From contig JAFRRT010000026.1 in NCBI GenBank assembly GCA_017427945.1, positions 62,001 through 126,000 of the forward strand: DNA of 64,000 nucleotides. The letters run 5' to 3'. The stretch comes from Muribaculaceae bacterium (GTDB taxonomy: Bacteria > Bacteroidota > Bacteroidia > Bacteroidales > Muribaculaceae). The position numbers were made by a program, and so were the translations under genes. The first letter of the stretch is position 1; every line of letters starts with the position of its first letter. The notes below the pieces were generated by a model. It was not told the DNA's origin, did no database searches, and saw only the letters and a list, made by a program, of their open reading frames with translations. Of the stretch, positions 44,641 to 64,000 are shown piece after piece.

Positions 44641-46053
44641 ATGAAAACACCAACCACCAACGAACAGCACACCCGCGTGCTGCATGCCGCCTATCAGGCC
44701 TGGATGAACGCGGCAGGTTTGCGACAGGCCCGCCTGCGCAACAAGCGGTTCACCTATGGCGACCAATGGGGTGACCTGATTCGCAACAACGAGGGTCGCG
44801 TCGTCACCGAGCGGGAACACCTCGCCGCCCAGGGTTGCGAGAGCATCACCAACAACCTCATCCGCCAGATGGTGAAGACCATCGTGGGACGTTTCAGGAG
44901 TCAGTACATCAAGCATGACGAAGCCGAGGAAGCGACGACACTCAGCGAAGTCGGCCGCGCCAATGAACTCGATGAACTCGACAGTCGTGCCCTTGAGGAG
45001 TTTTTGATTTCGGGCTGCTGCATCCAGCGCGTGGATACCTGTCGCGAGCCCGGCGCCAGCGAGCACATCAGGGTCGATAACGTGAACGTGAACAAGTTCT
45101 TTGTCAATGCGCTGAACGACACCCGCTCGTGGGACTGCGAACTCGTGGGCGAGCTGCATGACCTGAACATCGCCCAGTTGCTGCGACGCGTGGCGGGCGG
45201 CAACCAGCGCAAGGCGGCATGGGTGAGGCGACTCTATACCGACGGCGCCGAGGAACGCCTGGCCGACTTCACTGCCCAATTGGGTGCCGACACGCAGCTG
45301 GGCAGCGACTTCTGGCACGCCCGCGACGGCAAGTGCCGCGCCATCGAGGTGTGGGCACTCGAGAGCCGCGAAGTGATGGTGTGCCACAACCGCCGTGAGG
45401 GCACACTCACCGTGGAACCCGCCCATGCATCCCACCGCATGAGGAATCGTGCCGATGTATCGGTCCGCTGGGACATCGCTACCGTGTGGCACTGCCGCTG
45501 GTTCAGCCCCATGGGCGACCTTCTGTGCGAGTATGATTCGCCCTGGCAACACGGGAGCCATCCCTTTGTCATCAAACTTTATCCGCTCACCGACGGCGAG
45601 GTGCATGCCGTTGTCGAGGACATCATCGACGCGCAGAAGCACGTCAACCGCATGATATCGCTGCTGGACCAGGTGATGCGCTCGAGCGCCAAGGGAGTGC
45701 TGCTCTTTCCCGAGACGGCTCTGCCCGACGGATGGACCTGGGAGGATGCACGCCGCTGCTGGTCAAGCGCTAACGGCCTGCTGCCCTACAACCCCAACTA
45801 CGGCGAGGCCAAACCCGAACAGATCAGCGCCAACAACACGGGGCTGGGAGCATACCAGATGATTGAACTGCAGATGAAACTGTTTGAGGAAATCAGCGGT
45901 GTGAGCGGTGCCCTACAGGGCAAGAACCCCACTGTAAACAGCGCTAACGTCTATCAGTTGCAGAGCGAGAACGCCAACATCGCTTTGAGCGACGTGTATG
46001 ACTCCTTCCAGGCCTTCCGCCGACAACGAGACCGGAAAATAGTTAATAGTTAA
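44641..46053 (+). CDS. Phage portal protein, possibly truncated at its C-terminus
   Basis: A 470-residue portal-like protein, which in phages forms the ring through which DNA enters the capsid. Typical parts are ESITNNLIRQMVKTIVGRF near residue 70, RVDNVNVNKFFVNALNDTR, a beta-rich wing region with VWALESREVMVCHNR, and the helical YQMIELQMKLFEEISGVSG followed by ALQGK near the C-terminus. The end of the protein (KIVNS and the stop) is encoded by a heptamer repeat array, and related portals usually continue past RDRK, so a C-terminal loss is likely. It heads the cassette portal, small acidic protein, capsid protein, peptidase. Confidence 0.82.
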   Translation: MKTPTTNEQHTRVLHAAYQAWMNAAGLRQARLRNKRFTYGDQWGDLIRNNEGRVVTEREHLAAQGCESITNNLIRQMVKTIVGRFRSQYIKHDEAEEATTLSEVGRANELDELDSRALEEFLISGCCIQRVDTCREPGASEHIRVDNVNVNKFFVNALNDTRSWDCELVGELHDLNIAQLLRRVAGGNQRKAAWVRRLYTDGAEERLADFTAQLGADTQLGSDFWHARDGKCRAIEVWALESREVMVCHNRREGTLTVEPAHASHRMRNRADVSVRWDIATVWHCRWFSPMGDLLCEYDSPWQHGSHPFVIKLYPLTDGEVHAVVEDIIDAQKHVNRMISLLDQVMRSSAKGVLLFPETALPDGWTWEDARRCWSSANGLLPYNPNYGEAKPEQISANNTGLGAYQMIELQMKLFEEISGVSGALQGKNPTVNSANVYQLQSENANIALSDVYDSFQAFRRQRDRKIVNS

Positions 46054-46072
46054 TAGAGAATAGTTAATAGTT
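46039..46072 (+). repeat. Heptamer-type repeat (ATAGTTA) at the end of the portal gene
   Basis: About five copies of ATAGTTA or ATAGAGA. The portal stop codon TAA (46051-46053) lies inside it. It resembles the array at 39061-39087. Confidence 0.75.
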
Positions 46073-46100
46073 TTAGTAACCGTTTTAAATTTTATATGCC

Positions 46101-46505
46101 ATGAATGAACAGCATGATTTAGAAAACGTGGCGAAAGACGAGGCCATGACGCCACCGCCTTTTCGCCTCAGTGAAGAACCACAAGAGGAGCAACAGCCGC
46201 AGCCGTGCGCCTCCCCCACCCTTGCCGAACAGATTGCGGCGCTGGCACTCGACGAGAGTACGTCACAGCGCCTGGCTACACTCACCTGCGGTATCGAGCC
46301 GCAGGCAGTAACACCCGACCTGCTCACCACCCTCGCTCGCGGCATCACCCACGACGAGGACGTGCAAAACGCCGATGCGGCGGGCTATCTGCGCGGTCGC
46401 AACGAGCATATCGAGGCCGTATTGCATCCACAACCTCAAGACGAGGAGCAAGCCGAAAGCGCACCCGTCTTTCCCCGTTACTGCCGACGCAGCATTTGGG
46501 ATTAA
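46101..46505 (+). CDS. Small acidic protein between portal and capsid genes, scaffold candidate
   Basis: A 134-residue acidic protein with a Pro/Glu/Gln-rich N-terminal third, a helical middle (LAEQIAALALDESTSQ; TPDLLTTLARGITHD) and the phrase AAGYLRGRNEHIEAVLH. I do not recognise the family. Its place between portal and major capsid genes, its charge and its low complexity fit a scaffolding or capsid-accessory protein, but no protease or decoration motif is visible. Starts 47 bases after the portal stop. Confidence 0.6.
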   Translation: MNEQHDLENVAKDEAMTPPPFRLSEEPQEEQQPQPCASPTLAEQIAALALDESTSQRLATLTCGIEPQAVTPDLLTTLARGITHDEDVQNADAAGYLRGRNEHIEAVLHPQPQDEEQAESAPVFPRYCRRSIWD

Positions 46506-46582
46506 TCAGTTAGCAGTTTCTCTTAACAACTACAGACAATACACTTATACACAAAAACACAAATCTTTAAAAACAACAAACC

Positions 46583-47989
46583 ATGAACATCATCATTTTA
46601 ACAAAGACTCTGCGCTGGATGCGCAACCACAAGAAGTTAGTCATCTTTGCCATCGTTATGATCCTTATTGCCATTCTCGCGTCCTGCATGGGCGGTGACC
46701 ATGGCGCCGCAAGCCTCGCCGTGGGTATGCTCATCGGTGGCGTCGAGGATGGTCAGCATGTCGTTGACGGCCCGCTCACCACCGACCTGACCCGCGAGGG
46801 CTCGCCCGACCTGTTGCTCAACGAGATTGACCAGCAAATCGTGAAAATCCGCCCCATGTCCACCCCCATCGACCAGATTTCGCGCTATGGCGGCAGCAAG
46901 CATGCCGGTAGCATGACTGTCGATTTCTATAGTGTGGACACCAAGCCCACAAAAACGCGTCTGAACGGTGCCATCGAGGAATCGGACCCCAGTGAAGGTG
47001 ACGAAACGCCCGTCATCACCATCAACACCGACAACAATGACATCTTTGATGCCACCGACACGATTCTCGTGCAAAGTGTGTCGGGCTACGAGAAAGATGG
47101 CGTCACCGAGAGCGGACAGGACCTGATGCTCTACGTCTTGAACCGCGACACCAACGGCGTCACCGTCATGGCTGTGAACGGCCCCACGCTGAACGGTGTG
47201 CCCAACTGCTTCCCCGGCATCAACAACGGCGTTACCCTGGTGCGCATGGGACGTGCCGCCAGCGAACTCGACGTGCAGTCACCACAGTTCGAGGCCCTTC
47301 CCAAGAAGAGCCGCAACCTGTGTCAGATCTTTAAAATGCAGGTGGAGCAAAGCACATTGCAGCGCCTTGCCAACAAGGAAGTGGGCTGGACGATGAGCGA
47401 CCAGGAAGAGGCAGCCGTCTATGATATGCGCCTGGGCATGGAGAAGTCGTTCCTCTTCGGTACCGCCCGCCAGCTGTGGGACAATTTTAAGAAAGAATAC
47501 GTCTATTTCACTGGCGGCATCTGGAGCCAGGCAGGCAAGGACTTCTACATTGAGTCATCGACGGGCCTGACGGCCGCCAGGATGGTGGACCTGATGCACG
47601 ATGCCTTCACCGGCAACGCCGGCAGCAAGCGCAAGATTCTGATTGGCGGCAGCGGCCTCATCAGCAGCATCAGCAAGCTCGACTATGACCGCGTCATCAC
47701 CGCTGGTCAGCATGTAAGTAAATGGGGAATAGACTTCACTGAATTGAGGTCAAAATTCGGCTGCATCTACCTGATGCTCAGCGAGGTGTTTGACGAGGTT
47801 GGCATGACCGATGCCGGTATTGTCATCGACCCCGAGTATATCCAGAAGTACACCCACATCCCCTTCAGTACCGAGCAGCTCAACCTCAAGAAGAGCGGCG
47901 TGCGCAACGTTGACGCGCTGGTGATGACCGAGGCATCGTGCCTGGTGCTGCGCTACCCCAACGCTCACATGCGTGTCACCACCCGATGA
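46583..47989 (+). CDS. Phage major capsid protein (SU10/DUF5309-like) with lipoprotein-type N-terminus
   Basis: A 468-residue protein. The body from about residue 60 resembles the SU10-type HK97-fold major capsid proteins: DLLLNEIDQQIVKIRPMSTP, KHAGSMTVDFYSVDTKPTKT, MEKSFLFGTARQLWDN, YFTGGIWSQAG, RKILIGGSGLISSI and the C-terminal YPNAHMRV. Residues 13-38 read as a secretion signal: Arg/Lys start, hydrophobic LVIFAIVMILIAI, then the lipobox LASC at Cys35. Translation could begin at Met1, Met13 or the internal Met36 (ATG 46688), which would remove the signal. A capsid protein with such an N-terminus is unusual. The peptidase gene overlaps its stop by four bases. Confidence 0.8.
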   Translation: MNIIILTKTLRWMRNHKKLVIFAIVMILIAILASCMGGDHGAASLAVGMLIGGVEDGQHVVDGPLTTDLTREGSPDLLLNEIDQQIVKIRPMSTPIDQISRYGGSKHAGSMTVDFYSVDTKPTKTRLNGAIEESDPSEGDETPVITINTDNNDIFDATDTILVQSVSGYEKDGVTESGQDLMLYVLNRDTNGVTVMAVNGPTLNGVPNCFPGINNGVTLVRMGRAASELDVQSPQFEALPKKSRNLCQIFKMQVEQSTLQRLANKEVGWTMSDQEEAAVYDMRLGMEKSFLFGTARQLWDNFKKEYVYFTGGIWSQAGKDFYIESSTGLTAARMVDLMHDAFTGNAGSKRKILIGGSGLISSISKLDYDRVITAGQHVSKWGIDFTELRSKFGCIYLMLSEVFDEVGMTDAGIVIDPEYIQKYTHIPFSTEQLNLKKSGVRNVDALVMTEASCLVLRYPNAHMRVTTR

Positions 47990-48384
47990 AGTATTTCACC
48001 ATTCAGGAACTGACACGCTCGGTGACAGCACGTCGGCTGGGCATCGACAACACGCCGCCAGCCAGTGCCGTCAAAGCGCTGCATGAACTGGTAGATTGTG
48101 TGCTCGATCCCTTGCGCGAGGCTTGGGGCGGACCTATCAGGGTCAATAGCGGCTACCGCTGCCCCGAGCTGAACCAGGCAGTGGGAGGCACGCCGACGAG
48201 CCAGCACCAGAGCGGCGAGGCCGCCGACATCACTGTGGGCTCACGCTCCGGCAACCGTCGCCTGCTGTCGCTCATCAAGCAGCTTAATCTGCCCGTTGAC
48301 CAGTGCATCGACGAGAAAGGCTGCCGCTGGATCCATGTGAGCCACCGCCGTGGCCGCAACCGCCGCCTCTACATGAAATTCTGA
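47986..48384 (+). CDS. M15 family D-Ala-D-Ala carboxypeptidase-like endolysin
   Basis: A 132-residue zinc peptidase of family M15, the type used as phage endolysin or as a murein carboxypeptidase. The zinc ligands are complete: His74 in SQHQSGEAADI, Asp81 in the same motif, and His117 in WIHVSH. The substrate strand VNSGYRCPELNQAVGG is typical. The ATG at 47986 overlaps the capsid stop (ATGA), so translation is coupled to the capsid gene. No signal peptide is present and no holin gene follows. It is the last gene of the cassette. Confidence 0.88.
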   Translation: MKYFTIQELTRSVTARRLGIDNTPPASAVKALHELVDCVLDPLREAWGGPIRVNSGYRCPELNQAVGGTPTSQHQSGEAADITVGSRSGNRRLLSLIKQLNLPVDQCIDEKGCRWIHVSHRRGRNRRLYMKF

Positions 48385-48408
48385 CCTGGAACGGTTCAGA
48401 CTATCTTA

Positions 48409-48486
48409 ACTACGGATTACACCGATTTAACGAATTGATTGACAAACAATTAATTCGCTCAAAAACGGGTGATTCGTAGTTTTTTG
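48409..48486. terminator. Inverted repeat between the convergent peptidase and transporter genes
   Basis: AACTACGGATTACACCG pairs imperfectly with CGGGTGATTCGTAGTT, enclosing CGAATTG/CAATTAATTCG; T-run at 48480-48485. It probably ends transcripts from both sides. Confidence 0.6.
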
Positions 48487-48487
48487 T

Positions 48488-50152
48488 TTACAGGAAGATG
48501 AGGAGGAGTACCTGGGCGATGATGACGCGCAGGAACATGCTCAGGGGATAGACGGCGGCATAGGCCACCGAGGGGCGGTCGCTGCCAAGCGTCTCGTTGG
48601 CGTAGTTCATGGCCATGGGATTTGCCATCGCGCCGCTAAGCATACCACTAACCGAGGCATAGTCGATATGCGCCATGCGCAGCGCTATCCAACCCACAAT
48701 CAGCACAGGGATAATGGTGAGCAGGAAGCCCGTACCCACCCACAGCAGGCCCTCGGGACGAATGACGGTGGCAAAGAAGTCGGGGCCCGATGCCAGTCCC
48801 AGGCAAGCAAGATACAGGGCAAGGCCGATGGAGCGCAGCATCAGGTTGGCGCTCGACGTGGTATAGGCGTTGATGTGGATACGGGGGCCAAAGGCACCGA
48901 TGAGGATGCCGGCGATGATGGGGCCTCCTGCCAGTCCCAACTTCACGGGGGCGGTGATGCCCGGTAAGACGATGGGTATGGAACCCAAAATGAGACCAAA
49001 CGTCATACCCAGGAAAACGGTGATGAGGTTAGGTTCGTCGAGCATCTTGACGGCGTTGCCCACCTCTTTCTCTACATTTTTGATGGCCTCGCTGTGACCG
49101 ACGACGATGATGCGGTCGCCAATAAGCAGTCGCAAGTCGGGCGTGGCAAGCAACTGCAGGCCGCCACGGTTCACGCGGCTGATGTTCACGCCATAGTTGC
49201 GGCGCAAACGCAGGGAGCCCAGTTTGCGGCCGTTGATTTCGGGTTTAGTAATCAGGATGGCCTGCGAGACGAGGTCGCTGTCGATGGCGTTCCAGTCAAT
49301 ATCATCCTTGTTCCAGTCGGTCGCCTCCTGCTTGCCGAAGAGGACTTCCATCGCCTCGGCAGCATCTTGGTCCCTCATGGTCACCAGCAGGCGGTCGTCG
49401 GCCATGAGGACCGTTCCGGCCTCAGGAATGGTCACCTTGCCGTCACGCCACAGGCGTGAGATGACGAACTGACGGGGGCTGATGCGTGCCAAGTCGCCTA
49501 CGGTCTTGCCGATGATGCCCTCGTTGCGCACGCGGTAAGCGGCAATGAACGTGTGGTCGGCTTCATCCTCGCTCTCGTCGATAAGGTGATCGCTGTGGCG
49601 CACCAGCACCTTGCGGATGAGTGCCAATGCCAAGATGACACCCACCACACCCAAAGGATAGGTCACCGCACAACCCAATGCCGCGCCACTCTCGGGGCTA
49701 TGCAGCTGGGCCAACGTCTGCTGTGCCGCTGCCAGTGCAGGGGTGTTGGTCGTGGCACCACACATGATGCCCACCGCGTCACTCAGGTTAATGCCCAGTA
49801 AGGGCAACAACAGCGTGAGCACTGTTCCCACCAGTACCACACCTATCGCCAACATATTGAGCGTGAGGCCCGACTTGTGGAACGAGCTGAAGAAACCAGG
49901 TCCCACCTGCAAACCTAAAGCATAGACAAAGAGCACCAGACCGAAGTTCTGGGCATATTGCAACATGCGGGGCTCGATGGAGATGCCCAAATGTCCCGCG
50001 AGGATGCCGAGGAAGAAGACAAAAGCCACACCGAGCGAAACGCCCAGCACCTTAATCTTGCCAAGCGCCAAGCCGCAGGCACACAGCAGCGAAAGTATCA
50101 CCACCGCCTGCACCGCCGAGTGCGTCAAGAATATGTCAGTCAGCCACTGCAT
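48488..50152 (-). CDS. AspT/YidE/YbjL-family transporter
   Basis: A 554-residue membrane protein of the aspartate-alanine exchanger family. Two blocks of hydrophobic segments (about 1-180 and 370-554), each holding an AspT/YidE/YbjL duplication, flank two cytoplasmic TrkA-C domains (about 200-360), seen as NEGIIGKTVGDL, PEAGTVLMADDRLLVTM and RKLGSLRLRRNYG. The glycine-rich motifs GLVLFVYALGLQVGPGFF and CGATTNTPALAAAQ are characteristic. Transport substrate is unknown. It is the last gene of a minus-strand operon that starts near 54002. Confidence 0.88.
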   Translation of the reverse strand: MQWLTDIFLTHSAVQAVVILSLLCACGLALGKIKVLGVSLGVAFVFFLGILAGHLGISIEPRMLQYAQNFGLVLFVYALGLQVGPGFFSSFHKSGLTLNMLAIGVVLVGTVLTLLLPLLGINLSDAVGIMCGATTNTPALAAAQQTLAQLHSPESGAALGCAVTYPLGVVGVILALALIRKVLVRHSDHLIDESEDEADHTFIAAYRVRNEGIIGKTVGDLARISPRQFVISRLWRDGKVTIPEAGTVLMADDRLLVTMRDQDAAEAMEVLFGKQEATDWNKDDIDWNAIDSDLVSQAILITKPEINGRKLGSLRLRRNYGVNISRVNRGGLQLLATPDLRLLIGDRIIVVGHSEAIKNVEKEVGNAVKMLDEPNLITVFLGMTFGLILGSIPIVLPGITAPVKLGLAGGPIIAGILIGAFGPRIHINAYTTSSANLMLRSIGLALYLACLGLASGPDFFATVIRPEGLLWVGTGFLLTIIPVLIVGWIALRMAHIDYASVSGMLSGAMANPMAMNYANETLGSDRPSVAYAAVYPLSMFLRVIIAQVLLLIFL

Positions 50153-50172
50153 TAAGTCAATGAAATATCATA

Positions 50173-51288
50173 TTAAGATTGAAATTGCGTCACAATGTCG
50201 CGAACTGCCGCAGCCACACGACAGCGCGTGCCGTCGGGGGCCATCGCCTCGGCTTCCGCCAGCCCTTCGCTGACAGCGACTGCCGCGCAAAAGCCCGCTT
50301 CACGCGGGTCAAAGCCTTGCGCTATCTTGCCGCAGACGGCAGCCACGGGAACACCCCGCTCCTGAGCCATCTTAGCAACACAGCCAGGTCCCTTACCCAT
50401 CATGGTCTGGCGGTCCAGTTGACCCTCGCCCGTGATGACGAGGTCGGCACCCATAAGTGCCTCGTTCAGGCCGTTGCGGGCGAGTACATAGGGTGCGCCC
50501 TCCAGCAGTTCACAGTTCAGCAGATGCAGCATCAACGAGGGGATACCGCCCGCCGCGCCACAACCGGGTGTGGTGGCAATTTCCTCGCCGACGATGTCGG
50601 CCACGCGGCACATGCCGCGCTCCAGTTGCCTTACCTGCTCAGGGTCAGCCCCTTTTTGAGGTCCGAAAATCTTTGCAGTCCCCAATTCGCCGCACAGCGG
50701 GTTATCGACATCGGCCAAAAGGGTGAAACGGCTTTCAAGCACCTCATGCGGTATGCCGCCGGTCCCGATATGGTCAAGTTCCTGCAGATTACCACCGCAA
50801 GGAAAGAGCATTCGCCCCTCGGCATTGAAAAACTCCGCGCCCAGGGCACTCATGATACCCATCGCCGCGTCGCAGGTTGCCGAGCCACCCAAGCCTAGCA
50901 CGATGTGACGACTGCCACGCTCCATGGCGTCGCGCATCATCAGTCCCGTGCCAAACGTGTTCAGGCGAAAGATGTCACGCATCTCGTCGGGCACCCGCGA
51001 CATGCCGCTGGCGGCAGCCACCTCAATCAGGGCTGTGCCATCGTCACACAGGAAATAAGATGCCTCAACGGGCGGCAGGGTGATTAACGGAGCTATTGTG
51101 GGGACGGTCACCCGCACGCCCTTTAGGGTAGATGCGAGCACCTCGGTTGTGCCGTCGCCACCGTCGGCGACAGGCACACAAGTCACATTGAGCCCATCGC
51201 AGTCATGGAGTGCCAGATGGGCCGACTCGTTCAAGTCGCTTGCTGTCGCTGATCCTTTGAACTTATCAAACGCCAGGACAACCTTCAT
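50173..51288 (-). CDS. Glycerate 2-kinase (GlxK/GarK type)
   Basis: A 371-residue kinase that makes phosphoglycerate from glycerate. Hallmarks are AFDKFKGSATASD, PVADGGDGTTEV, IEVAAASGM, LGLGGSATCDAAMG, FGPQKGAD, GCGAAGGIP and ITGEGQLDRQT. Its ATG shares one base with the stop of the upstream coiled-coil lipoprotein gene, and the transporter follows after 20 bases, so all are in one transcript. Whether the transporter brings in a glycerate-like acid is a guess from adjacency. Confidence 0.92.
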   Translation of the reverse strand: MKVVLAFDKFKGSATASDLNESAHLALHDCDGLNVTCVPVADGGDGTTEVLASTLKGVRVTVPTIAPLITLPPVEASYFLCDDGTALIEVAAASGMSRVPDEMRDIFRLNTFGTGLMMRDAMERGSRHIVLGLGGSATCDAAMGIMSALGAEFFNAEGRMLFPCGGNLQELDHIGTGGIPHEVLESRFTLLADVDNPLCGELGTAKIFGPQKGADPEQVRQLERGMCRVADIVGEEIATTPGCGAAGGIPSLMLHLLNCELLEGAPYVLARNGLNEALMGADLVITGEGQLDRQTMMGKGPGCVAKMAQERGVPVAAVCGKIAQGFDPREAGFCAAVAVSEGLAEAEAMAPDGTRCRVAAAVRDIVTQFQS

Positions 51289-52175
51289 CAGTCAACCTTG
51301 ACAACAAGGAAATTGGATTTCTCCCAGAAGCGGTCAGCATTCAGGATGTGCAACGTCTTGACATTGCCATGGTCCACCAACTCGTAGGAGTCCTTGGGGT
51401 GGTTGGTCAAGAGCTGTGCCTTATTGCTGTGAAGGGGAATCTCGCTCAAGGTGCGGCGGTCGGCCTTGGTGAAATAGGACATCTCAAAGTCGCCCTCGAG
51501 GATTCGTGTCTTGCGCAGGAAACCGCTCTCAATGATTTTGTTGGCCTTGAGTTCCTTCTTCGAGCCAACAACATAATAGCAGGTGTTGAGGTTGTTCACC
51601 TCGGCGGTCAAGTTCTTGGACTGCTCCTGAGCAGCCTCTTTCTCCTTGATGACAGCCTTGTTGACGGTGTTCAACGAGTCAACGCTCTGATTCAGATTTT
51701 TAATCTGGATGTGCGCAGCCGCCAATTGCTCGGTCAGGCCGTTAATGGTGGTCTGCTGGTCTTCGAGCTGACGCTTGAGGCTGGCGATGGTCTTTTCCAT
51801 CTTACCGTTGTAGTTGGTGGACTGTTTCAGTCGTTTCTCCAACTCCTCGAGACGAGCTTTGTGCTTGTTGATGGACTGCTGGATGAGCACGATGTCATCG
51901 CGCAGCTGTTTCTTGCGGTCGGGCGTCTCGCTACTCAGATTGTTGACCGAGACGATGTCTTCCAGTTCCTTGATCTGCGTCATACCCTCGCTGATGTCGT
52001 TCATCAGATCCATGAGGCTGTCACGTTCAGCATTGGCAGTATTGATGGAGTCTTGCAAGGCGGCGTTGATGGAATCCTGACGCATCGCCTCCTGCTCCAG
52101 TTGATTGGCGCGCTTGCAAGCGGGCAGCAATGCCAGGCCAATCATCAACCACACTAAATAAAAAATCTTTTTCAT
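51288..52175 (-). CDS. Coiled-coil lipoprotein of unknown function
   Basis: A 295-residue lipoprotein; signal ends in LPAC at Cys20. Residues 30-195 form a long heptad-rich coiled coil (for example HKARLEELEKRLKQS and IASLKRQLEDQQTTINGL). The C-terminal 95 residues, from CYYVVGSKKELKANKI, form a compact domain with FEMSYFTKADRR and ILNADRFWEKS. The same overall form is seen in uncharacterised Bacteroidales proteins. It probably sits in the periplasm, anchored in a membrane. Role unknown. Confidence 0.8.
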   Translation of the reverse strand: MKKIFYLVWLMIGLALLPACKRANQLEQEAMRQDSINAALQDSINTANAERDSLMDLMNDISEGMTQIKELEDIVSVNNLSSETPDRKKQLRDDIVLIQQSINKHKARLEELEKRLKQSTNYNGKMEKTIASLKRQLEDQQTTINGLTEQLAAAHIQIKNLNQSVDSLNTVNKAVIKEKEAAQEQSKNLTAEVNNLNTCYYVVGSKKELKANKIIESGFLRKTRILEGDFEMSYFTKADRRTLSEIPLHSNKAQLLTNHPKDSYELVDHGNVKTLHILNADRFWEKSNFLVVKVD

Positions 52176-52220
52176 ATCCGTCTGTTTTGTTATAGTCTTG
52201 TTCTATAAGTGCTTAAAATA

Positions 52221-52967: not shown

Positions 52968-52982
52968 GAGACGAGCAAAAAA

Positions 52983-54002: not shown

Positions 54003-54064
54003 AATACTCTGTTTCTTTGCTGCTTAGCGACTTAACGCCAAGGATTTGCTTCACATCCAATCTG

Positions 54065-54072
54065 CAAAGATA
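54065..54072 (-). promoter_or_regulatory. -7 element for the 52983-54002 operon (minus strand)
   Basis: TATCTTTG on the minus strand, 62 bases before the start codon. CAAA at 54089-54092 is a -33 candidate with a short 16-base spacer. Confidence 0.6.
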
Positions 54073-54151
54073 ATGCAAAATATCGATTCAAATAGAACAA
54101 AGGGAATTTTATTTTCGGCCCTCAATCGGGTTTGGCGCGCAAGCGCCTGAT

Positions 54152-57034: not shown

Positions 57035-57065
57035 TACAGCAAGCAGAAAACTTGAATTGTGGCGG

Positions 57066-57073
57066 CAAAAATA
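57066..57073 (-). promoter_or_regulatory. -7 element of the hybrid regulator gene (minus strand)
   Basis: TATTTTTG on the minus strand, 31 bases upstream of the chosen ATG; the base group at the -33 position is TTTC, one mismatch. Confidence 0.55.
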
Positions 57074-57229
57074 GAGTATTTTTTTCGAAACTGAAAACAT
57101 TTCTTTCGAAATTTCCAGCCCCCCCCCATTTTCGGTAGTACCCTGCGCATCAATCTCTTCAATGAATGGCCTTCGCCAGGAAAAAAACAAAAAAATCACT
57201 CACGATAACGCCATATCGATTAAAATGAC

Positions 57230-57237
57230 TAATTTTG
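57230..57237 (+). promoter_or_regulatory. -7 element of the DUF4199 gene
   Basis: TAATTTTG matches TAnnTTTG and ends only 9 bases before the ATG at 57247, which predicts a very short or absent 5' leader. Confidence 0.55.
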
Positions 57238-57246
57238 CAGGTTATT

Positions 57247-57786
57247 ATGTCAGAACCGAAGAAAAGCATCTATCAGCGGGCGGGCGAATGGGGCATCCCC
57301 TTCGGCCTGTACCTGTCGTGTGCCGCTGTCGCGTCGATTTATGCCGACAAGTTCCAACCCTTGAGCCTGGTATTCTTTATCTTGCTCATAGGGACACCGT
57401 TGCTGACCTATTATTACCAGCGTCGCAAATTCATCGAGGATGACGGCTTCACCGAGTATGCCGGCTTGTGGATGCTCGGCATCCTGCTGTTCATCCTGGG
57501 CTCGGTCATTTCCAGCCTCGTCGTCTATCTCGTGCTGCAGTACTGGCGGCCCGAGTTCATGTATGAGCAGGCGCAACTTGTGCTCGACACCTACAAGGAC
57601 ATGCCCGAGATGAAGGACAGTGATGTCATGCTAGTACTGCGGCGACTGGTTGACGAGCGGTTGATGCCGTCACCCATCCAGACGGTGTTCAACGCCTTTT
57701 GGTTCGTCACCTTTGGCGGCTCGATGGTGAGCGCCATCACGGCATTGATTGCCCAGCGCAAGCCTAAGAAACGCGACAGTCTTTAA
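57247..57786 (+). CDS. DUF4199 family inner-membrane protein
   Basis: A 179-residue membrane protein. Four hydrophobic segments are visible: near residues 16-34, 42-56, 72-97 and 146-166. The loop between the third and fourth carries WRPEFMYEQAQ and MKDSDVMLVLRRLVD. This matches the DUF4199 family of Bacteroidota, often encoded next to a GT2 glycosyltransferase as here. Function unknown. A TTG 12 bases upstream is inside the -7 box and is not a likely start. Confidence 0.85.
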   Translation: MSEPKKSIYQRAGEWGIPFGLYLSCAAVASIYADKFQPLSLVFFILLIGTPLLTYYYQRRKFIEDDGFTEYAGLWMLGILLFILGSVISSLVVYLVLQYWRPEFMYEQAQLVLDTYKDMPEMKDSDVMLVLRRLVDERLMPSPIQTVFNAFWFVTFGGSMVSAITALIAQRKPKKRDSL

Positions 57787-57840
57787 TGACAATTCAAGTG
57801 GATTTTTAAAACGATATCATCATTTTATAAGTGGCAGGAT

Positions 57841-58899
57841 ATGGACATTTCAGTAGTAGTACCGTTGTATAACGAGGCAGAGTCACTGCCGGAACTTGCC
57901 GAATGGATTGAGCGTGTCATGAACGAGAACGGTTTCTCTTACGAGGTGCTGTTCATTAACGACGGCAGCACCGACGACTCTTGGGACGTCATCAAGGAAC
58001 TGCATGCCAAGAACCCCCGGATGAAGGGCATCGCCTTCCGCCGCAACTACGGCAAGTCACCGGCGCTGAACACCGGCTTTGAGCGGGCTCAGGGCGATGT
58101 CATCATCACGATGGACGCCGACCTGCAGGACAGCCCCGATGAGATTCCCGAACTCTACCACATGATTACCCGTGACGGGTATGACCTGGTGAGCGGATGG
58201 AAGAAGAAACGCTATGACCCGCTCAGCAAGACCATCCCCACCAAGCTCTTCAACGCTACTGCCCGCCGCGTTACCGGCATCCACAACCTGCACGACTTCA
58301 ACTGCGGCCTGAAAGCCTACCGCCGCGATGTCGTCAAGCACATCGAGGTGTATGGCGACATGCACCGCTATGTGCCCTATCTTGCCAAGATTGCGGGTTT
58401 CACTAAAATCGGAGAGAAAGAAGTGAAGCACCGCGCGCGCAAGTACGGCTCGACCAAGTTCGGCCTTGACCGCTTTGTCAACGGCTATCTCGACCTGCTC
58501 ACGCTGTGGTTCCAGGGCAGGTTCGGCGTCAAGCCGATGCACTTCTTCGGCCTGCTGGGCAGCTTCATGTTCCTGTTAGGTTTCGCCGCTGTAATTCTTG
58601 TCGGTGCCCTCAAGTTGTATAACATGTATAGCGGCAACAGTTACAGGCTGGTGACCGATTCACCCTACTTTTACCTTGCCTTGACCTCGATGTTGCTGGG
58701 TACTCAACTTTTCCTCACAGGATTCCTGGGAGAGCTCATCATTCGCCACAGCAACGATCGCAACCACTACGAGATCAGCGAGGAAATCATCGATGAAGGT
58801 CGGCCTGCCATCGCCGCCCGCCAGCAGGTGGACGTGCTCGATACGCTGCCCAAGCAACAGCCTGTGAAACAGGAAGTTCACATCGAGAAGGAGCTATGA
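57841..58899 (+). CDS. Membrane GT2 glycosyltransferase (DPM/ArnC/GtrB type)
   Basis: A 352-residue enzyme. The N-terminal GT-A domain shows VVPLYNEAESL, INDGSTDDSWD, RRNYGKSPALN, the metal motif MDADLQDSP and GWKKKRYDPL. Two C-terminal membrane segments lie at about 236-262 and 277-300. Such enzymes move a sugar onto undecaprenyl phosphate on the cytoplasmic side of the inner membrane. It is 54 bases after DUF4199 and overlaps the DUF6452 gene by four bases. Confidence 0.9.
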   Translation: MDISVVVPLYNEAESLPELAEWIERVMNENGFSYEVLFINDGSTDDSWDVIKELHAKNPRMKGIAFRRNYGKSPALNTGFERAQGDVIITMDADLQDSPDEIPELYHMITRDGYDLVSGWKKKRYDPLSKTIPTKLFNATARRVTGIHNLHDFNCGLKAYRRDVVKHIEVYGDMHRYVPYLAKIAGFTKIGEKEVKHRARKYGSTKFGLDRFVNGYLDLLTLWFQGRFGVKPMHFFGLLGSFMFLLGFAAVILVGALKLYNMYSGNSYRLVTDSPYFYLALTSMLLGTQLFLTGFLGELIIRHSNDRNHYEISEEIIDEGRPAIAARQQVDVLDTLPKQQPVKQEVHIEKEL

Positions 58900-59393
58900 G
58901 CCGCCTATTGCACATAGCCACGTTGATGTTGCTCGCCCTGTGCCTCTTTACGGCGGCGTGCAGCGACGAGAGTTGCTATGAGAACGGCAGCAGCCTGCCC
59001 CTTGCCACACTCTATCTGGGAGAAGCCCAACAGACCATCACTGGGCTTACCGTCATGGGCATCGGGGCTCCCGGCGACAGCCTGTTGCTCAACAATGGCG
59101 CCGTCAAGGAGCTTTACCTGCCGCTGCGTGCCAGTGTTCAATCCACATCGTTCATGTTCGGCAGATGGCTCATCAACGGCACCGATACAGTGATGGTGAG
59201 AGATACTGTTACTCTTGACTATCAGCCCGTTGAATACTTCCACTCGGCAGAGTGCGGCGCGATGTTCAACTTCAACATGAAGAACGTGCGCCACACGACA
59301 CACGGCATCGATTCGGTTGTGCTGATGACCGACGTGGTCACCAACTCGCAGCTGCCCGCATTACGCATCCATTTCACCGATTTCGCACTATGA
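58896..59393 (+). CDS. DUF6452-like lipoprotein
   Basis: A 165-residue lipoprotein, lipobox TAAC at Cys22. The mature part is a small beta-rich domain starting SDESCYENGSS, with LLLNNGAVKELYLPL and a late HSAECGAMFNF. It matches the DUF6452 group that is commonly encoded just before DUF6048 genes in Bacteroidales, as here. ATGA overlaps on both sides show tight translational coupling. Function unknown. Confidence 0.8.
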   Translation: MSRLLHIATLMLLALCLFTAACSDESCYENGSSLPLATLYLGEAQQTITGLTVMGIGAPGDSLLLNNGAVKELYLPLRASVQSTSFMFGRWLINGTDTVMVRDTVTLDYQPVEYFHSAECGAMFNFNMKNVRHTTHGIDSVVLMTDVVTNSQLPALRIHFTDFAL

Positions 59394-60262
59394 AGACGAC
59401 CGCACATACAAGAAATCACATCAAAGGGACGCTTCTTTTGATGACATTCATCTTGTCGGCCGTTTTCACCATCGGCGCCCAGGAGCCTGACCGCCGCCAT
59501 GTCACCCCCGTCAAGCCCGAGACCAATGAGGTGAAACCGCCGCCCAAGGGCACCGACGACAAAATCATCCAGCAATACATCAGCGGCGACAGCGCTGCCG
59601 CCGTTGCCGAGGCTCGCAAAGACTCGCTTCGACGCGTGTATAAACGCTACCCCAGATTGACCGACATCGCCTACGGCATCAACTTCATCGAGCCGCTTTT
59701 CATGGCCTTCGGGCAGTCCTATGCCAGCGCCGACGTGAATGCCACCCTCAACATGTGGAATAGGTTCCAACCTACTGTTGAGCTGGGTATGGGATGGGCA
59801 AAATCCACCCCCGACGGCATGAACTTCACCTATCGCGGCAAGCCCTCCCCCTACGTCAAGGTAGGCGCCAACTACAACTTCATGTTTAAGAACAGCCCCG
59901 ACTACCAGGCACTGATTGGTATCAGACTGGGATACAGCACCTTTGGCTACGACATCAAAGACGTTAATTACAGCAACAGTTACTGGCAGGAGAGCATCGG
60001 GTACGACATCACCGGAGAGCGTTCCCACGCCCTGTGGGGAGAGGCGGGCGTTGGCCTCAAGGTCAAGATCAGCGGCCCCTGGTCACTGGGGTGGATGATT
60101 CGTTACCACGGCATCTTCAACTATGGCAAGAGCGACCATTCCAAGCCGTGGTTCATCCCCGGCTACGGTCCCCGCGAGAGTTCCTTAGGACTCTCCTTGA
60201 CGCTGCAATACACATTGCCGCTCTATCACGAGAATACCCCATCACCACAACCCAAAGAATAA
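59390..60262 (+). CDS. DUF6048-like outer-membrane beta-barrel protein
   Basis: A 290-residue secreted protein starting at ATG 59390, which overlaps the previous stop. The signal peptide (about 1-30) is followed by a Lys/Pro-rich linker (TPVKPETNEVKPPPKG), then alternating beta-strands with glycine-rich turns (LGMGWAK, YVKVGANYNFMF, LIGIRLGYSTFGYD, GEAGVGLKVKI) and a C-terminal LSLTLQYTLPLY, as expected for a small outer-membrane barrel. Together with the lipoprotein before it, it forms a conserved unknown pair. Confidence 0.82.
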   Translation: MKTTAHTRNHIKGTLLLMTFILSAVFTIGAQEPDRRHVTPVKPETNEVKPPPKGTDDKIIQQYISGDSAAAVAEARKDSLRRVYKRYPRLTDIAYGINFIEPLFMAFGQSYASADVNATLNMWNRFQPTVELGMGWAKSTPDGMNFTYRGKPSPYVKVGANYNFMFKNSPDYQALIGIRLGYSTFGYDIKDVNYSNSYWQESIGYDITGERSHALWGEAGVGLKVKISGPWSLGWMIRYHGIFNYGKSDHSKPWFIPGYGPRESSLGLSLTLQYTLPLYHENTPSPQPKE

Positions 60263-60272
60263 CACTACAGCC

Positions 60273-60410
60273 ATGATGATTAAAAAGCAACAACGACACT
60301 TCGGCCAGCAGGCACGCATCCCAAAAATCAGGCCTGCGGGCAACCCCGACTGGTACAAACGCTTTAGGCAGCTTGCCAGACTCTCGGGCAACATCTTCAG
60401 AATGAAATGA
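60273..60410 (+). CDS. Possible small basic protein, 45 residues
   Basis: An open frame of 45 codons, ATG ATG at 60273, ending TGA at 60410, located 10 bases after the barrel gene. The product is strongly basic with NPDWYKRFRQLARLSG in the middle, which could be an amphipathic helix. No family recognised; the close spacing and amino-acid pattern favour a real gene, but chance is not excluded. Confidence 0.4.
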   Translation: MMIKKQQRHFGQQARIPKIRPAGNPDWYKRFRQLARLSGNIFRMK

Positions 60411-60716
60411 GATGAGTCCCAATGCGAGACACATGCAGCACACCTAAATCGGCGCCAAATGCTACTTGTTAATAGTTTTTTTGCCGATTTTTCAAAAAAA
60501 TTTTGCCAGTTCAAAAAAAGTTCGTAATATTGTAGTCTGAAAAGCGGGAAAAACCGCTCGTTTTGAGCCTATTTCTTTGATTTTCAACATAATAATATCA
60601 TAGTACCTCCTTTCGGCATACTATGCCCGGACGGAGAGAAGCGGATTTAAACAAAGAACAAAAAAAACAAAACATATTAAATTAACATTATTACTAACTA
60701 TTTAACTCATTAAACT
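60411..60716 (+). other. Long leader region before the secreted protein gene
   Basis: These 306 bases hold no supported gene. They contain a promoter at 60502-60532 and then about 175 bases of predicted 5' untranslated leader with two small hairpins: AGCGG/CCGCT near 60543-60558 and CATAGTA/TACTATG at 60599-60625, followed by an A-rich stretch before the ATG. No known riboswitch recognised. Confidence 0.55.
60502..60532 (+). promoter_or_regulatory. Promoter of the secreted protein gene at 60717
   Basis: TTTG at 60502-60505 and TAATATTG at 60525-60532 (one mismatch to TAnnTTTG) with an exact 19-base spacer. Confidence 0.65.
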
Positions 60717-61688
60717 ATGAAGATTAAAAATTTACTTCTTTTCGCTGCCGCTGCATCGCTGAGCCTTAGCGCTTTCGCTGACGAGCTCTCGACTGGCGAG
60801 CTTGCTGTCCTGTCAACCGGCGAACCCGCTACCTCTGGTCAGCCCACCAACGACCACTTCTTCGTACGTGGTGACTATGATGACATGGGTTCGATGATGA
60901 CCTTCGACAACCAGGTTAGCTTCAAGGCTGGTGACACCCAGTTGGTATGGTTCTACCTTGATGATGATGAGATCTATCTGAACGAGGCTGTTCAGGCTCT
61001 CACCCCCATCGCTTACAATGCCGCTGGTGACCTCTACAACGAAATTACTTACAACTCATTCCAGTTCGACCTTTACCTCCCGCAGAGGTTGCAGGTCATC
61101 GTCGGTGAAGACGAGGATGGTGAGGAGATTACCTTCGAGCAGGGTGACCGTCTTCCCTCAAACGCTACCCTGACTTGGGGTTTGAAGGAAGAGACCAAGG
61201 TTATCGATGGTATCACCTACAACATCTATACCGTAGTAAGCTACAACTCGAACGCTTATGGCAGCCACCTGTCAGCTAAGAACGCCAGCAAGTACAAAAA
61301 CAACGGCGCTCTGAAGAAAGACTACAGCGTATTTGCACTGCAGATCAAGGACACCCAGGCCGACGGTGAGAACCACATCGACGACATGATCATCGCTAAC
61401 CAGATGCTCAACCTGCGTGAGACCGCTATCGCTGAGTGGGATCCCAACAGCAGCACCTTCTTCTATGGCACCGGTGGTAACCTGGAGACCCAGCGCTTCC
61501 AGAACTACAACCGTGTTAAGATGCACGGCAGCGCCAATGTTGTTGAGAATCTGGCCGAGAAGACCATCAACAACGTGAAGTACTACAACATTGCCGGTAT
61601 GGAGAGCAATGTTCCCTTCGACGGTGTTAACATCATGGTAACCACCTACAACGATGGTACTACCAGCACCTGCAAGGTGATGAAGTAA
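60717..61688 (+). CDS. Abundant-type secreted protein with Bacteroidales C-terminal tail domain
   Basis: A 323-residue protein with a clear signal peptide cut after AFA (about residue 21). The middle is rich in Asp, Asn and Tyr and has no recognised enzyme motif. The last 45 residues (INNVKYYNIAGMESNVPFDG, then VNIMVTTYNDGTTST and CKVMK) match the short C-terminal beta-domain common on secreted proteins of Prevotella and related genera. Codon use is visibly different from neighbours, with many GCT, GGT and CGT codons, as in highly expressed genes. A long leader and a strong terminator surround it. It may be an abundant surface or exported protein; role unknown. Confidence 0.8.
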   Translation: MKIKNLLLFAAAASLSLSAFADELSTGELAVLSTGEPATSGQPTNDHFFVRGDYDDMGSMMTFDNQVSFKAGDTQLVWFYLDDDEIYLNEAVQALTPIAYNAAGDLYNEITYNSFQFDLYLPQRLQVIVGEDEDGEEITFEQGDRLPSNATLTWGLKEETKVIDGITYNIYTVVSYNSNAYGSHLSAKNASKYKNNGALKKDYSVFALQIKDTQADGENHIDDMIIANQMLNLRETAIAEWDPNSSTFFYGTGGNLETQRFQNYNRVKMHGSANVVENLAEKTINNVKYYNIAGMESNVPFDGVNIMVTTYNDGTTSTCKVMK

Positions 61689-61712
61689 GAAATTACTGAA
61701 CATCAAAATACA

Positions 61713-61747
61713 AATAACCGCGGGCTTAACGCTCGCGGTTATTTTTT
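61713..61747. terminator. Strong terminator after the secreted protein gene
   Basis: AATAACCGCGGGC pairs with GCTCGCGGTTATT (one mismatch) across TTAAC, then six T at 61742-61747. The A-rich left flank means that it could also act on minus-strand transcripts. Confidence 0.85.
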
Positions 61748-61754
61748 GTGTAAA

Positions 61755-61773
61755 GCCGTGGCAGAGCCACGGC
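61755..61773 (-). terminator. Hairpin just downstream of the terminase gene
   Basis: GCCGTGGC (61755-61762) pairs perfectly with GCCACGGC (61766-61773) across a three-base loop, 25 bases past the terminase stop on the minus strand. It is followed there by only a short T stretch (TTTACAC), so it may be a weak terminator or an mRNA 3' stabiliser. Confidence 0.5.
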
Positions 61774-61798
61774 ACGGAGTGGAGAGATAAGGAAGCGG

Positions 61799-63676
61799 CT
61801 ACAGTTTCTCGCCGAGCCACACATCGCTGGCCAGTGACTTGTCGGGAGGGGTTTCCTTAGGCACCACACGCTTGTCCTTCATCACCAGCAAGCCGATGGC
61901 GCGCGTCATCAGGATGTCGTCGTGCTTGCCGGGACGGGCAGCATAGCGTCCGTTGTACTCCTGATAGTCACGCATCTCGTTCACCGCATCCATGTCACGC
62001 TCGACATAGGCACCTTCCCTCACCGCCTCGATCAAAGCGGTGACGGCTTCACGCTTGGTTTTGACATTGGTGTGGAAACCCAACTTCTTGCCGTCGCGCT
62101 TATAGACATTTCCATAGCATCGCGACACCTGCTGCATGATGTACTCGCTCTCACCGGCACGCGCCGCCTCGTTAGTCAGTGTGTTGCTCTCGATGACGAG
62201 GGCAGCGTTGTTGTAAAGGATGGCCAGCTGCATCGACTTCCAGCCCAACTGGTCATGGTCGATATGGCCGCGCCACTGTGCCACGATGGCCGGCGGGTGC
62301 CCTTGTGCGGCAAAACGCCACACGGCAATGACCGAATAGTCACTGCCCTCGGACCTGCCGCCGACATCAACCACCACTGCATATTTCGCCAACCGGGGGC
62401 CGCGACTCTCGGGCATCTCCCAGACGCGCAACAAGCCGTTGGAAGCCCGCACCAGCCTGACATTCCGCTTGGCCTCATGCCCGCTGGCGCCGTCGGCCTG
62501 GATGTCGCCCACCAGGACGGGAGGCTTGTCACAGCTTTTCTCCATGGCGTCCAGGTGCTCACTGGCAAAGGGACAATGAGTCGTTGTGGCAAAAGCCTCG
62601 TTGGCGGTGCCGGGATACTCGGCCATCATCAGTTCGTGGGTGCGGTATTCTTTGCGCTTGCTGTGGTACCAGTTTACCTGTTCCAGGGTGCAGCCCGTCT
62701 GCCACAGCATCTGCTCATACTCATCCATCGACTCCCACAATGCCCACGCATCATCGACAGGTAGCGAGTAGATGCCTATCTCATGCCACGGCACAAAGAC
62801 GGGAACCTTGTAGCTGCGGTCGAGCTGGGCACGTTGCCACTCATCATGGAAATAGTCCCCCACCCCGTTGGCGGTCGATTCCAGAACGATGACAGTCTCG
62901 GGCTTGAGCGCCACGCTGCCACAGACGCTACGCACCACATCGTCGGGGCTGTGCATCGGTGTCTCGGGCCAATATGCCACCTCGCTGAGGTGCGCCATTG
63001 CGATATCATAGCCTCGCGCAGCATCCTCGCTGCGAGAACTGCCCGTCAGCACCAGGCAGTCGCGGGAAGTAATCTGCTGTACGTTGGGCTGTCCCTCCAG
63101 TTTGGCAAAGCGCGGCACATCGTCCTTGTCATCAAGCAGCTCGCGGGGATAGTGTCGCAACAGCAGGTTATACATCCGCTTGATGCTCTTGCTCGTCGCA
63201 TGCAGGTGGCCGCAAATCAGGCTGTTCCACCCCGTGTGGCGCACGAGCTGCATCCATGCCAAATACATCTGTACCAACGTCGATCCACCCCACTGACGCG
63301 CCTTGAGCAAGATAACTCGCACAGGAAGTCCCGCCGTACGCTGCTCCTCCATGACTGCGAGCAGGCGGCGCTGCGGTCGGTTGAGGACAAACTTCACGTT
63401 CTTGCCGCTCATCTTGTCCTTGATGGTCACGCAACGGGCACACCAGAATTCAAAGTCCTCCCGTATGCGGGCCTTGTCCTGCTCGACCGGCGTCAACATG
63501 GCGTAGTGGGGGCATTGCTCCAGCACCACACGGGGAATGTGGCGGCCGCCCACCTCAACACGGTCTCCCCAACAGCCGACGCCCGCCAGCGGGTCATAGC
63601 CTCTATCGTCAAGCAGCGCCAAGCGCCGCTTGTTTTCGACGAGGAGTTCATCCACATTATTATATATATGGTTCAT
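61799..63676 (-). CDS. Phage terminase large subunit (ATPase and nuclease)
   Basis: A 625-residue DNA-packaging motor. The ATPase part has a terminase-type Walker A, LLKARQWGGST (123-133), Walker B with catalytic Glu, IAMAHLSE (225-232), and the coupling motif ESTANG (266-271). The RNaseH-like nuclease part has Asp437 in VVVDVGGRSEGSDYS, Glu496 in VIESNT and the HDD pair at 585-587. All catalytic positions appear intact and the length is normal, so this is not an obvious pseudogene. It lies on the opposite strand and 13.4 kb from the portal/capsid cassette, with ordinary chromosomal genes between. No small terminase gene is visible in the window. Confidence 0.92.
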   Translation of the reverse strand: MNHIYNNVDELLVENKRRLALLDDRGYDPLAGVGCWGDRVEVGGRHIPRVVLEQCPHYAMLTPVEQDKARIREDFEFWCARCVTIKDKMSGKNVKFVLNRPQRRLLAVMEEQRTAGLPVRVILLKARQWGGSTLVQMYLAWMQLVRHTGWNSLICGHLHATSKSIKRMYNLLLRHYPRELLDDKDDVPRFAKLEGQPNVQQITSRDCLVLTGSSRSEDAARGYDIAMAHLSEVAYWPETPMHSPDDVVRSVCGSVALKPETVIVLESTANGVGDYFHDEWQRAQLDRSYKVPVFVPWHEIGIYSLPVDDAWALWESMDEYEQMLWQTGCTLEQVNWYHSKRKEYRTHELMMAEYPGTANEAFATTTHCPFASEHLDAMEKSCDKPPVLVGDIQADGASGHEAKRNVRLVRASNGLLRVWEMPESRGPRLAKYAVVVDVGGRSEGSDYSVIAVWRFAAQGHPPAIVAQWRGHIDHDQLGWKSMQLAILYNNAALVIESNTLTNEAARAGESEYIMQQVSRCYGNVYKRDGKKLGFHTNVKTKREAVTALIEAVREGAYVERDMDAVNEMRDYQEYNGRYAARPGKHDDILMTRAIGLLVMKDKRVVPKETPPDKSLASDVWLGEKL

Positions 63677-63686
63677 GAGGGCAAAT

Positions 63687-64000
63687 TCAAGGGTGATACA
63701 GGAGGGTTGGCAAGAAAAGGGTACCTGTAGAGGCAGTTCCTGTGGCCGACAGGCAGACTGTGCGGGCGCGGGCAGCGACCATGGGTGTTGCCAACGGCTG
63801 ATCCACAGCGCCTGTCACCGTCACCACACTCATTTCGCCGTCCTGGGCCATGATACCGCGCTGACCTGTTACCTTGAGCGTCAAGTCCACGTCTTCACTC
63901 CTCACATGCCACGCCACACGATGCAGCGCCTTGCCCAACAAGGGATGCAACTCAATGGGATGGCTGAGCCACGACACCGGTTGCACTAAAGCGTTTTCCT
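63687..64000 (-). CDS. Partial unknown gene upstream of the terminase gene
   Basis: The minus-strand frame is open through the window edge, past a possible GTG at 63986, so the start probably lies outside. The visible 100-odd residues include PIELHPLLGKALHRVAWHVR and a Thr/Ala/Val-rich part (VVTVTGAVDQPLATPMV) that looks beta-rich. Family not recognised. It ends 10 bases before the terminase ATG, so it belongs to the same transcript and may be another phage-derived gene. Confidence 0.6.
   Translation of the reverse strand, partial: ENALVQPVSWLSHPIELHPLLGKALHRVAWHVRSEDVDLTLKVTGQRGIMAQDGEMSVVTVTGAVDQPLATPMVAARARTVCLSATGTASTGTLFLPTLLYHP

Follow-up and report, generated by a model that had tools for sequence, protein, structure and literature searches.

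Scattered phage head and packaging genes conserved in Sodaliphilus (Muribaculaceae) suggest a domesticated, possibly gene-transfer-agent-like system

Introduction

In the 64-kb stretch of DNA analysed here (the window, G000:C21:62001-126000, from a 2.77-Mb genome in 39 contigs), phage-type genes for a portal, a major capsid protein (MCP) and an M15 peptidase stand at one place and the gene of a large terminase (TerL) at another, with host genes between them, which raises the question of whether they are remains of a prophage or a system kept by the cell. The host genus is taken here as Sodaliphilus, a described genus of Muribaculaceae with a cultured pig isolate and a closed genome in the excerpted text of PMC7738495. 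Capsid relatives in named genomes (the best 80 of 209, all with at least 60% identity) carried the titles Muribaculaceae, Prevotellaceae, Porphyromonadaceae or Bacteroidales, including three Candidatus Sodaliphilus species, and where a source was given it was a ruminant or a horse in many.

The first-pass annotation of this DNA had proposed an undescribed Bacteroidales system that is capsid-based or resembles a gene transfer agent (GTA), with a decayed, rearranged prophage as the main alternative. The proposal is supported by co-occurrence of the genes in related genomes, by selection, by conserved neighbours and by further loci, and the alternative is contradicted by near-universal presence, open frames and low ratios of nonsynonymous to synonymous substitution (dN/dS). 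The gene set is, with high confidence, a domesticated and vertically inherited phage system rather than a decaying prophage. Its probable function is a GTA-like particle that packages DNA, a reading preferred to the others since selection has kept motor, portal and shell.

Results

Conservation and selection across the genus

The genes were sought in 61 genomes drawn evenly from the genus, among them G000. These fall into clade 1 (28 genomes, whose capsid or portal is about 80% identical to that of the window) and clade 2 (33 genomes, about 60%). The portal was found in 59 genomes, the MCP in 59 and TerL in 57, mostly as single and intact copies, and among the 31 genomes at least 90% complete the numbers were 31, 30 and 30. 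With the same tool rpoB was found in 50 of the 61 genomes and in 29 of the 31, indicating that the phage genes occur with the regularity of a core gene. No portal match in this draw had an internal stop; G031 has just a portal fragment, at the end of a contig, G070 has a partial portal, and in G012, G013, G016 and G029 the match was in two pieces inside one open frame, while no portal was found in two of the 61 genomes (G020 and G064). The first 45-48 residues of the capsid protein were missing in G016 and G027.

Selection was estimated in the 21 of 61 genomes in which portal, capsid, TerL and rpoB are wholly readable (12 of clade 1 and 9 of clade 2). The median dN/dS by the Nei-Gojobori method (NG86) in clade 1 and clade 2 was 0.18 and 0.24 for the capsid, 0.14 and 0.27 for the portal, 0.17 and 0.35 for TerL, and 0.04 and 0.085 for rpoB, ratios that are rough, with dS near saturation (median pS 0.40-0.63). 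Portal, capsid and TerL are under purifying selection, with medians (0.14-0.35) well below 1, as the first-pass annotation had expected of a domesticated system. Amino-acid distances of the three proteins followed those of rpoB overall (r 0.95-0.96, driven by the clade split) and also within clade 2 (r 0.79-0.89, with 0 to 5 of 2000 permutations as high). The genus thus presents vertical inheritance with purifying selection, as in a GTA, apart from the clade-1 distance test, in which no significant correlation with rpoB was seen. Patchy presence, broken frames and relaxed selection, the marks of a decayed prophage, do not characterise these genes in the genus.

Dispersal over several loci

In clade 1 there are two main loci, locus A with the order portal-scaffold-capsid-M15 and locus B with nozzle-terL. 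The host neighbours seen in the window were kept at locus A in five of seven and at locus B in five of five clade-1 stretches compared, so that the co-occurrence anticipated by the first-pass annotation extends to the surroundings. A third locus in the window's genome, on contig G000:C15, holds a gp49-like gene followed by an S159-like gene; gp49 was found by profile search in 59 of the 61 genus genomes (weakest best match E 5.6e-14), and an S159 relative was present in 27 of the 30 gp49 loci fetched. A gp45-type connector was found in 28 of the 33 clade-2 genomes at E 0.001. The search for head and tail genes at further loci that the first-pass annotation had recommended was therefore productive, yielding the gp49-S159 locus, the nozzle gene and the clade-2 connector; the head, connector and tail set now includes portal, scaffold, MCP, nozzle-like and S159 genes, with the gp45-type connector found in clade 2 but in no clade-1 genome at E 0.001.

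Portal and capsid are separate as well in the clade-2 genomes read, and in the single-contig genome G084 (3.34 Mb) TerL lies at 0.937, M15-portal at 1.358, the connector at 1.540, gp49 at 1.818 and scaffold-MCP at 1.894 Mb. The gene set is dispersed over three known loci in the window's genome and up to five in relatives. Misassembly, raised earlier as a possible cause, is contradicted by the single-contig genomes G084, G319 and G352. An intact SU10/P22-like prophage was rejected too: the genes stand at several places, and the contiguous relatives G066:C41 and G195:C32 are distinct and distant.

Portal, scaffold, capsid and M15 peptidase

The window portal is a short form without the C-terminal stretch found in phages. 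The same stretch is missing throughout the genus, in three genomes of other genera of Muribaculaceae (G199, G295 and G085) and in the IMG/VR contigs L215, L216 and L218. The short portal is best read as a conserved, shared derived loss and not as decay, and the first-pass annotation, which had counted the truncation as a sign of decay, is corrected on this point by the same form across the genus, the sister genera and the related compact clusters.

The gene between portal and capsid evidently encodes a shortened scaffold relative, because its motif GYLRGRNxxIE...SIWD is partly common with phage gp48 and it occupies the same slot before the capsid gene. Direct matches with hidden Markov models were weak (E 0.0064-0.067, the window copy at 0.067). 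The gp48 family was matched by three of five further genus copies, an iterated gp48 profile reached the clade-2 copies at 1e-15 to 8e-22, and the gene was present in all 25 clade-1 capsid loci.

A hydrophobic N-terminus, defined as an 18-mer with mean Kyte-Doolittle (KD) hydropathy of at least 1.8 and counted without a control set of other capsids, was found in 76 of 80 genus MCPs, in 67 of 72 phage-type MCPs from IMG/VR with a complete 5' end, and in six of eight MCPs from other families and sister genera. In the phage BF1-TP2 a gene annotated as rhomboid protease adjoins terL (L091:18145-18612), and a rhomboid note is also carried by the gene beside terL in BKO1-TP3 (L092:37361-37879). The phage rhomboid genes together with the hydrophobic MCP N-terminus suggest, as a testable idea, membrane-anchored head assembly with cleavage and release by a protease.

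The M15 gene, a candidate lysis gene for particle release, was found within the fetched flanks of 22 of the 25 clade-1 capsid loci, and beside the portal in G084, G015 and G063. In G061 about 4 kb, with other genes in it, separates the intact capsid gene from a stray capsid 3' end with an M15 gene (L100:4137-4732). A 42.9-kb virus-catalogue contig, L219 (IMG/VR 3300011002_000616), carries a clade-1-like portal-scaffold-capsid cassette (82%, 60% and 77%), indicating that host loci of this kind can be mistaken for viruses.

Terminase and nozzle-like gene

A TerL match was present at 156 loci, and frames of at least 560 aa were obtained from 145. The residues K125, R127, Q128, G130, T133, E232, D437, E496, D586 and D587, assigned to the Walker A/B motifs and the acidic nuclease residues, were kept in 47 of 47 Sodaliphilus frames, a number that includes repeated genomes, and in 33 of 33 further frames, which come mostly from other genera or families with two from Sodaliphilus, many genomes twice and a few prophage copies. 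Variation in the compared frames was limited to S132 to T in one and T268 to S in two. A large terminase with intact catalytic residues, as in a GTA, is thus encoded by all 47 Sodaliphilus frames, and a TerL profile search of the PDB found T4 gp17 at 1.4e-16. In the records PQ571263 and PQ571269, gp60 and gp51 respectively are large terminase genes, though annotated as 'tail spike protein'.

The open reading frame (ORF) at the right edge of the window is the end of a 664-aa protein encoded upstream of terL on the same strand, the rest reaching to G000:C21 127681. It is a distant homologue of phage gp34 (20-33% identity in blast pieces, the two being joined by profiles), and because gp34 adjoins the portal in the G066 prophage the product was named a probable nozzle-like virion protein. 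The nozzle gene adjoins terL in 27 of 30 terL loci. Two dockerin proteins of 442 and 466 aa adjoin one nozzle-terL locus (L093:11868-14825); in G014 the terL locus, and in G084 the gp49 locus, likewise has dockerin proteins nearby.

In five of the 61 genus genomes there is a further TerL gene, at 40-42% identity and with open frames of 605-641 aa (L114-L117, that is G035:C10, G033:C15, G061:C5 and G024:C13, and G082:C76). In the four that were read, the ATPase residues are kept and the nuclease residues replaced (T stands for D437, Q for D586, and Q or N for D587), and none of the reference phage genes was found in their fetched stretches.

A shared putative promoter element

The pattern GCTTTTTG-NNN-T[GT][GC] has one match in the 64-kb window. 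In 32 clade-1 loci it has 33 matches in 631 kb of both strands, 31 of which lie within 400 nt upstream of a portal match (30 of the 32 loci) and two elsewhere. Five of six clade-1 stretches also have the element ahead of the nozzle gene, and in L096, the remaining one, a degenerate form can be made out by eye. In 48 other loci, nearly all of clade 2 and mostly without a portal, there were four matches in 809 kb. Allowing up to two mismatches to GCTTTTTGACATGG gave three matches in the window against 0.51 expected, so the stricter pattern matters, and a full -7 box (TAnnTTTG) at fixed spacing after the element was seen in only four portal cases. Since the portal and nozzle promoters, which are not orthologous to each other, share the element, its distribution argues for one regulon of the portal and nozzle-terL loci. 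By eye, the gp49 promoter of clade 1 (L514:7850-8028 and ten more gp49 loci of the clade) looks strongly conserved; it contains TTGACA or a close variant, CAACAATRTTG, which resembles an inverted repeat, and TGTAATTTTGCAA, and it may be an operator.

Phage relatives and distribution in the order

The nearest cultured phages are Bacteroides BF1-TP2, BKO1-TP3 and BS-TP4, which are 33-42% identical. A compact, contiguous form of the set with the order nozzle-TerL-scaffold-capsid-connector-portal-gp49-S159 is complete in G199, which belongs to a different Muribaculaceae genus and has it flanked by an AcrB/OEP efflux pair and HipA/sulfate permease genes; it is partial on the IMG/VR contigs L215-L218 and split into two pieces in G085 and at least two in G295. 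Prophage-type genes occur within the genus at G066:C41, G008:C283 and G008:C102. The contiguous, more distant prophage-type sets of G066:C41 and G195:C32 show the likely free form.

Across the order, the portal profile matched 22 of 295 genomes, namely G000, the three sister-genus genomes with short portals, and 18 from eight other families. In six of these families (f22, f28, f60, f68, f88 and f109; 16 genomes) TerL and capsid were present in each genome, mostly far apart or on different contigs, as in the single-contig genome G352 with the portal at 1.149, capsid at 1.395 and TerL at 1.427 Mb; a second, prophage-type set was found in G195 and G292. The phenomenon extends far beyond the window, through the genus and into other families. 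Portal, capsid and TerL lie within about 38-49 kb in G319, G148, G088 and G297, where a rearranged prophage is less sharply excluded; the neighbours that could be recognised in the stretches from G319 belong to the host (fumarase, histidine kinase, MFS, OEP).

A fumarase gene lies near scaffold-capsid in 11 of the 16 genomes and five of the six families, at 0.5 kb or less in ten and at 3.5 kb in G269; it was found in none of three f22 genomes nor in the 10 kb read in G202, and in G338 the capsid is at a contig end. This adjacency points to one old insertion, with a favoured insertion site as the alternative.

Gene layout and neighbours in the window

The features are given in Table 1. All five phage-type ORFs named in the first-pass annotation (portal, small acidic protein, capsid, M15 and terL) were found where it had placed them; for the M15 gene the identity held and the start did not, the likely one being the ATG at 47986, overlapping the capsid stop, instead of 47938.

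Table 1. Phage-derived features and promoter element in the window (window coordinates).
Feature	Position	Strand	Details
Promoter element GCTTTTTGTCATGG	44544..44557	+	97 nt upstream of portal start
Portal	44641..46053	+	470 aa; phrog_156 9.1e-42; Pfam P22_portal 3.4e-17
Small acidic protein, scaffold-like	46101..46505	+	134 aa; shortened relative of phage gp48
Major capsid protein, SU10/HK97 type	46583..47989	+	468 aa; SU10_MCP 8.7e-49; phrog_26635 1.6e-92
Hydrophobic N-terminal capsid segment, residues 19-35	46637..46687	+	
M15 peptidase, endolysin-like	47986..48384	+	132 aa; Peptidase_M15_3 5.4e-20; phrog_894 4e-35
Large terminase TerL	61799..63676	-	phrog_2 2.7e-22; ATPase and nuclease residues intact
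C-terminal part of probable nozzle-like virion protein	63687..64000	-	phrog_32516 5.3e-10

A Pfam scan of 11 neighbouring window ORFs recovered an Asp-Al_Ex permease, glycerate kinase, a glycosyltransferase, a pyridoxamine-oxidase-like protein, DUF4199, DUF6452 and DUF6048, and the remaining ORFs were without a clear Pfam family. The permease, glycerate kinase and glycosyltransferase bear out the earlier description of host genes around the phage loci, and the right-edge ORF was the only phage-like gene among the 11. No integrase, repressor or replication gene, none of which the first-pass annotation had seen either, was present among the neighbours sampled with Pfam. The phage-derived head, portal and terminase genes thus sit between host genes, as far as the sampled neighbours extend, as is the case for GTAs.

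Discussion

The intact, scattered shell and packing genes suggest that the bacteria build a particle of their own, which packs their DNA and may also share it. The shared promoter element would switch on the portal-scaffold-capsid-M15 and nozzle-terL loci together, after which scaffold and capsid protein would build the head on a short portal ring that probably lacks a barrel, possibly at the inner membrane via the hydrophobic N-terminus of the capsid protein. The terminase, perhaps with gp49, would drive cellular DNA into the head, and this DNA would be the host's, since no virus genome remains to choose. The nozzle protein and S159 may seal the head and make up a short tail, cell lysis and particle release may be aided by the M15 peptidase, and the DNA could be delivered to relatives or used in repair.

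Several observations weigh against the GTA-like reading. The chief weakness is the missing convincing connector in the window's own clade, as the gp45-type connector was found in none of the 28 clade-1 genomes at E 0.001, and weak matches with internal stops in G007, G032 and G073 (E 0.017-0.041) look like noise. No tail-fibre or receptor-binding gene was identified, no search aimed at such genes having been made. The particle, its packaged DNA and the transfer are predictions from the genes. The clade-1 distances do not track those of rpoB (r 0.09-0.32, 136 to 604 of 2000 permutations as high, not significant), and the roughness of the dN/dS ratios belongs here too. G007 and G015 carry the capsid gene in pieces and G066 carries it with one TAG, while two of the 61 genomes (G020, 74% complete, and G033, 93%) gave no capsid match; TerL has one TAG in each of G064 and G077 and was not found in four of the 61 (G023, G031, G075 and G080). 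Five gp49 stretches lack the promoter element, as do the scanned portal (L104, L123, L127) and terL (L107, L110, L126) stretches of clade 2. In addition, free relatives are not all remote, since the capsid of the phage-type IMG/VR contig L214 is 53% identical.

The connector gap also speaks for a domesticated capsid system with a role other than gene transfer, for instance the killing or lysis of kin, action as a decoy with DNA inside, or storage of DNA in a head without a tail. This is unlikely, although it would fit a nozzle-like gene alone to account for a tail, no receptor-binding gene identified (none having been specifically sought), and a portal and scaffold that are reduced relative to phages; yet TerL and portal form a packaging motor, and with both TerL catalytic centres intact a decoy or killer would not obviously need them. 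The same motor speaks against a role in interference with related phages, in which defective capsid, portal or terminase subunits would poison virion assembly. Related prophage genes do occur within the genus (G066:C41, G008:C283 and C102), and the further TerL of five of the 61 genomes has lost its nuclease residues in the four read, but the main TerL has all its catalytic residues in each of 47 frames, and about eight virion genes have been retained jointly where one would do for interference, which makes this explanation improbable. An ordinary decayed and rearranged prophage is very improbable: a few copies are broken or missing and the portal is short compared with phages, but the genes are present in 59, 59 and 57 of 61 genomes in nearly always open frames with dN/dS of 0.14-0.35, and the short portal and the surroundings are both conserved.

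How the GTA-like system arose can be proposed tentatively. A single early domestication, in a shared ancestor of several families of Bacteroidales, may have given a core, vertically inherited GTA, whose genes later dispersed and yet would remain one regulon, with a membrane-anchored shell and a barrel-less portal; as a whole this scenario is possible but somewhat doubtful. Encapsulins, in which an HK97-type shell protein is kept by the cell, offer a likeness. Encapsulins are not known to have a portal or terminase, and an encapsulin was rejected here, both genes being present and conserved in the Sodaliphilus system.

GTAs of the RcGTA type have one main head-tail cluster and a long-tailed HK97-type architecture. 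The Sodaliphilus ancestor, in contrast, was a short-tailed phage of the P22/SU10-like kind, and its capsid, portal and terminase genes can each stand at a separate place. Both have phage-derived chromosomal head and packaging genes, and the RcGTA-type agents of Alphaproteobacteria package host DNA and not their own genome in the excerpted text of PMC7947584. According to excerpts of PMC12946183, FpGTA of Faecalibacterium likewise belongs to a gut anaerobe, has short-tailed-phage-like proteins and is encoded in two operons, separated by about 125 kb in a closed genome, which resembles the dispersal seen here. It differs in phylum and in that one 10.5-kb operon holds terL, portal, scaffold and capsid, which occupy two or more places in Sodaliphilus; FpGTA particles with about 9 kb of DNA were demonstrated in the same excerpts (PMC12946183), whereas the present system is known from its genes. 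The portions of the phage records used (BF1-TP2, PQ571263; BKO1-TP3, PQ571269; BS-TP4, PQ571277) contain homologous portal, TerL, MCP, scaffold, connector, gp49 and nozzle genes, and the hydrophobic MCP N-terminus is found there as in Sodaliphilus. The phage genomes, however, are contiguous (64-68 kb), with a portal of 622-656 aa, a scaffold of 259-283 aa and 33-42% identity, and BKO1-TP3 has replication and recombination genes and very large proteins.

In its excerpted text, PMC12946183 assigns 23 of 25 GTA-like packaging events to Ruminococcaceae, Oscillospiraceae and Christensenellaceae, mainly the first two families, and reports lateral transduction in Bacteroides. Among the matches listed for the open-licence PMC literature, a scope outside which bioRxiv preprints lie, no GTA of Bacteroidetes, Bacteroidota or Bacteroidales was found, and a query for domesticated prophages in Muribaculaceae returned no such GTA either.

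The genes described here indicate that a domesticated virus can be taken far apart while its parts stay under selection, and gene finders that seek a GTA or prophage cluster would therefore overlook them. The type strain Sodaliphilus pleomorphus DSM 108610, which is in culture and has a closed genome (excerpts of PMC7738495), makes the system directly testable. If DNA is packaged, this would be a GTA in Bacteroidota, a dominant phylum of animal guts, and it could help explain gene flow within the phylum.

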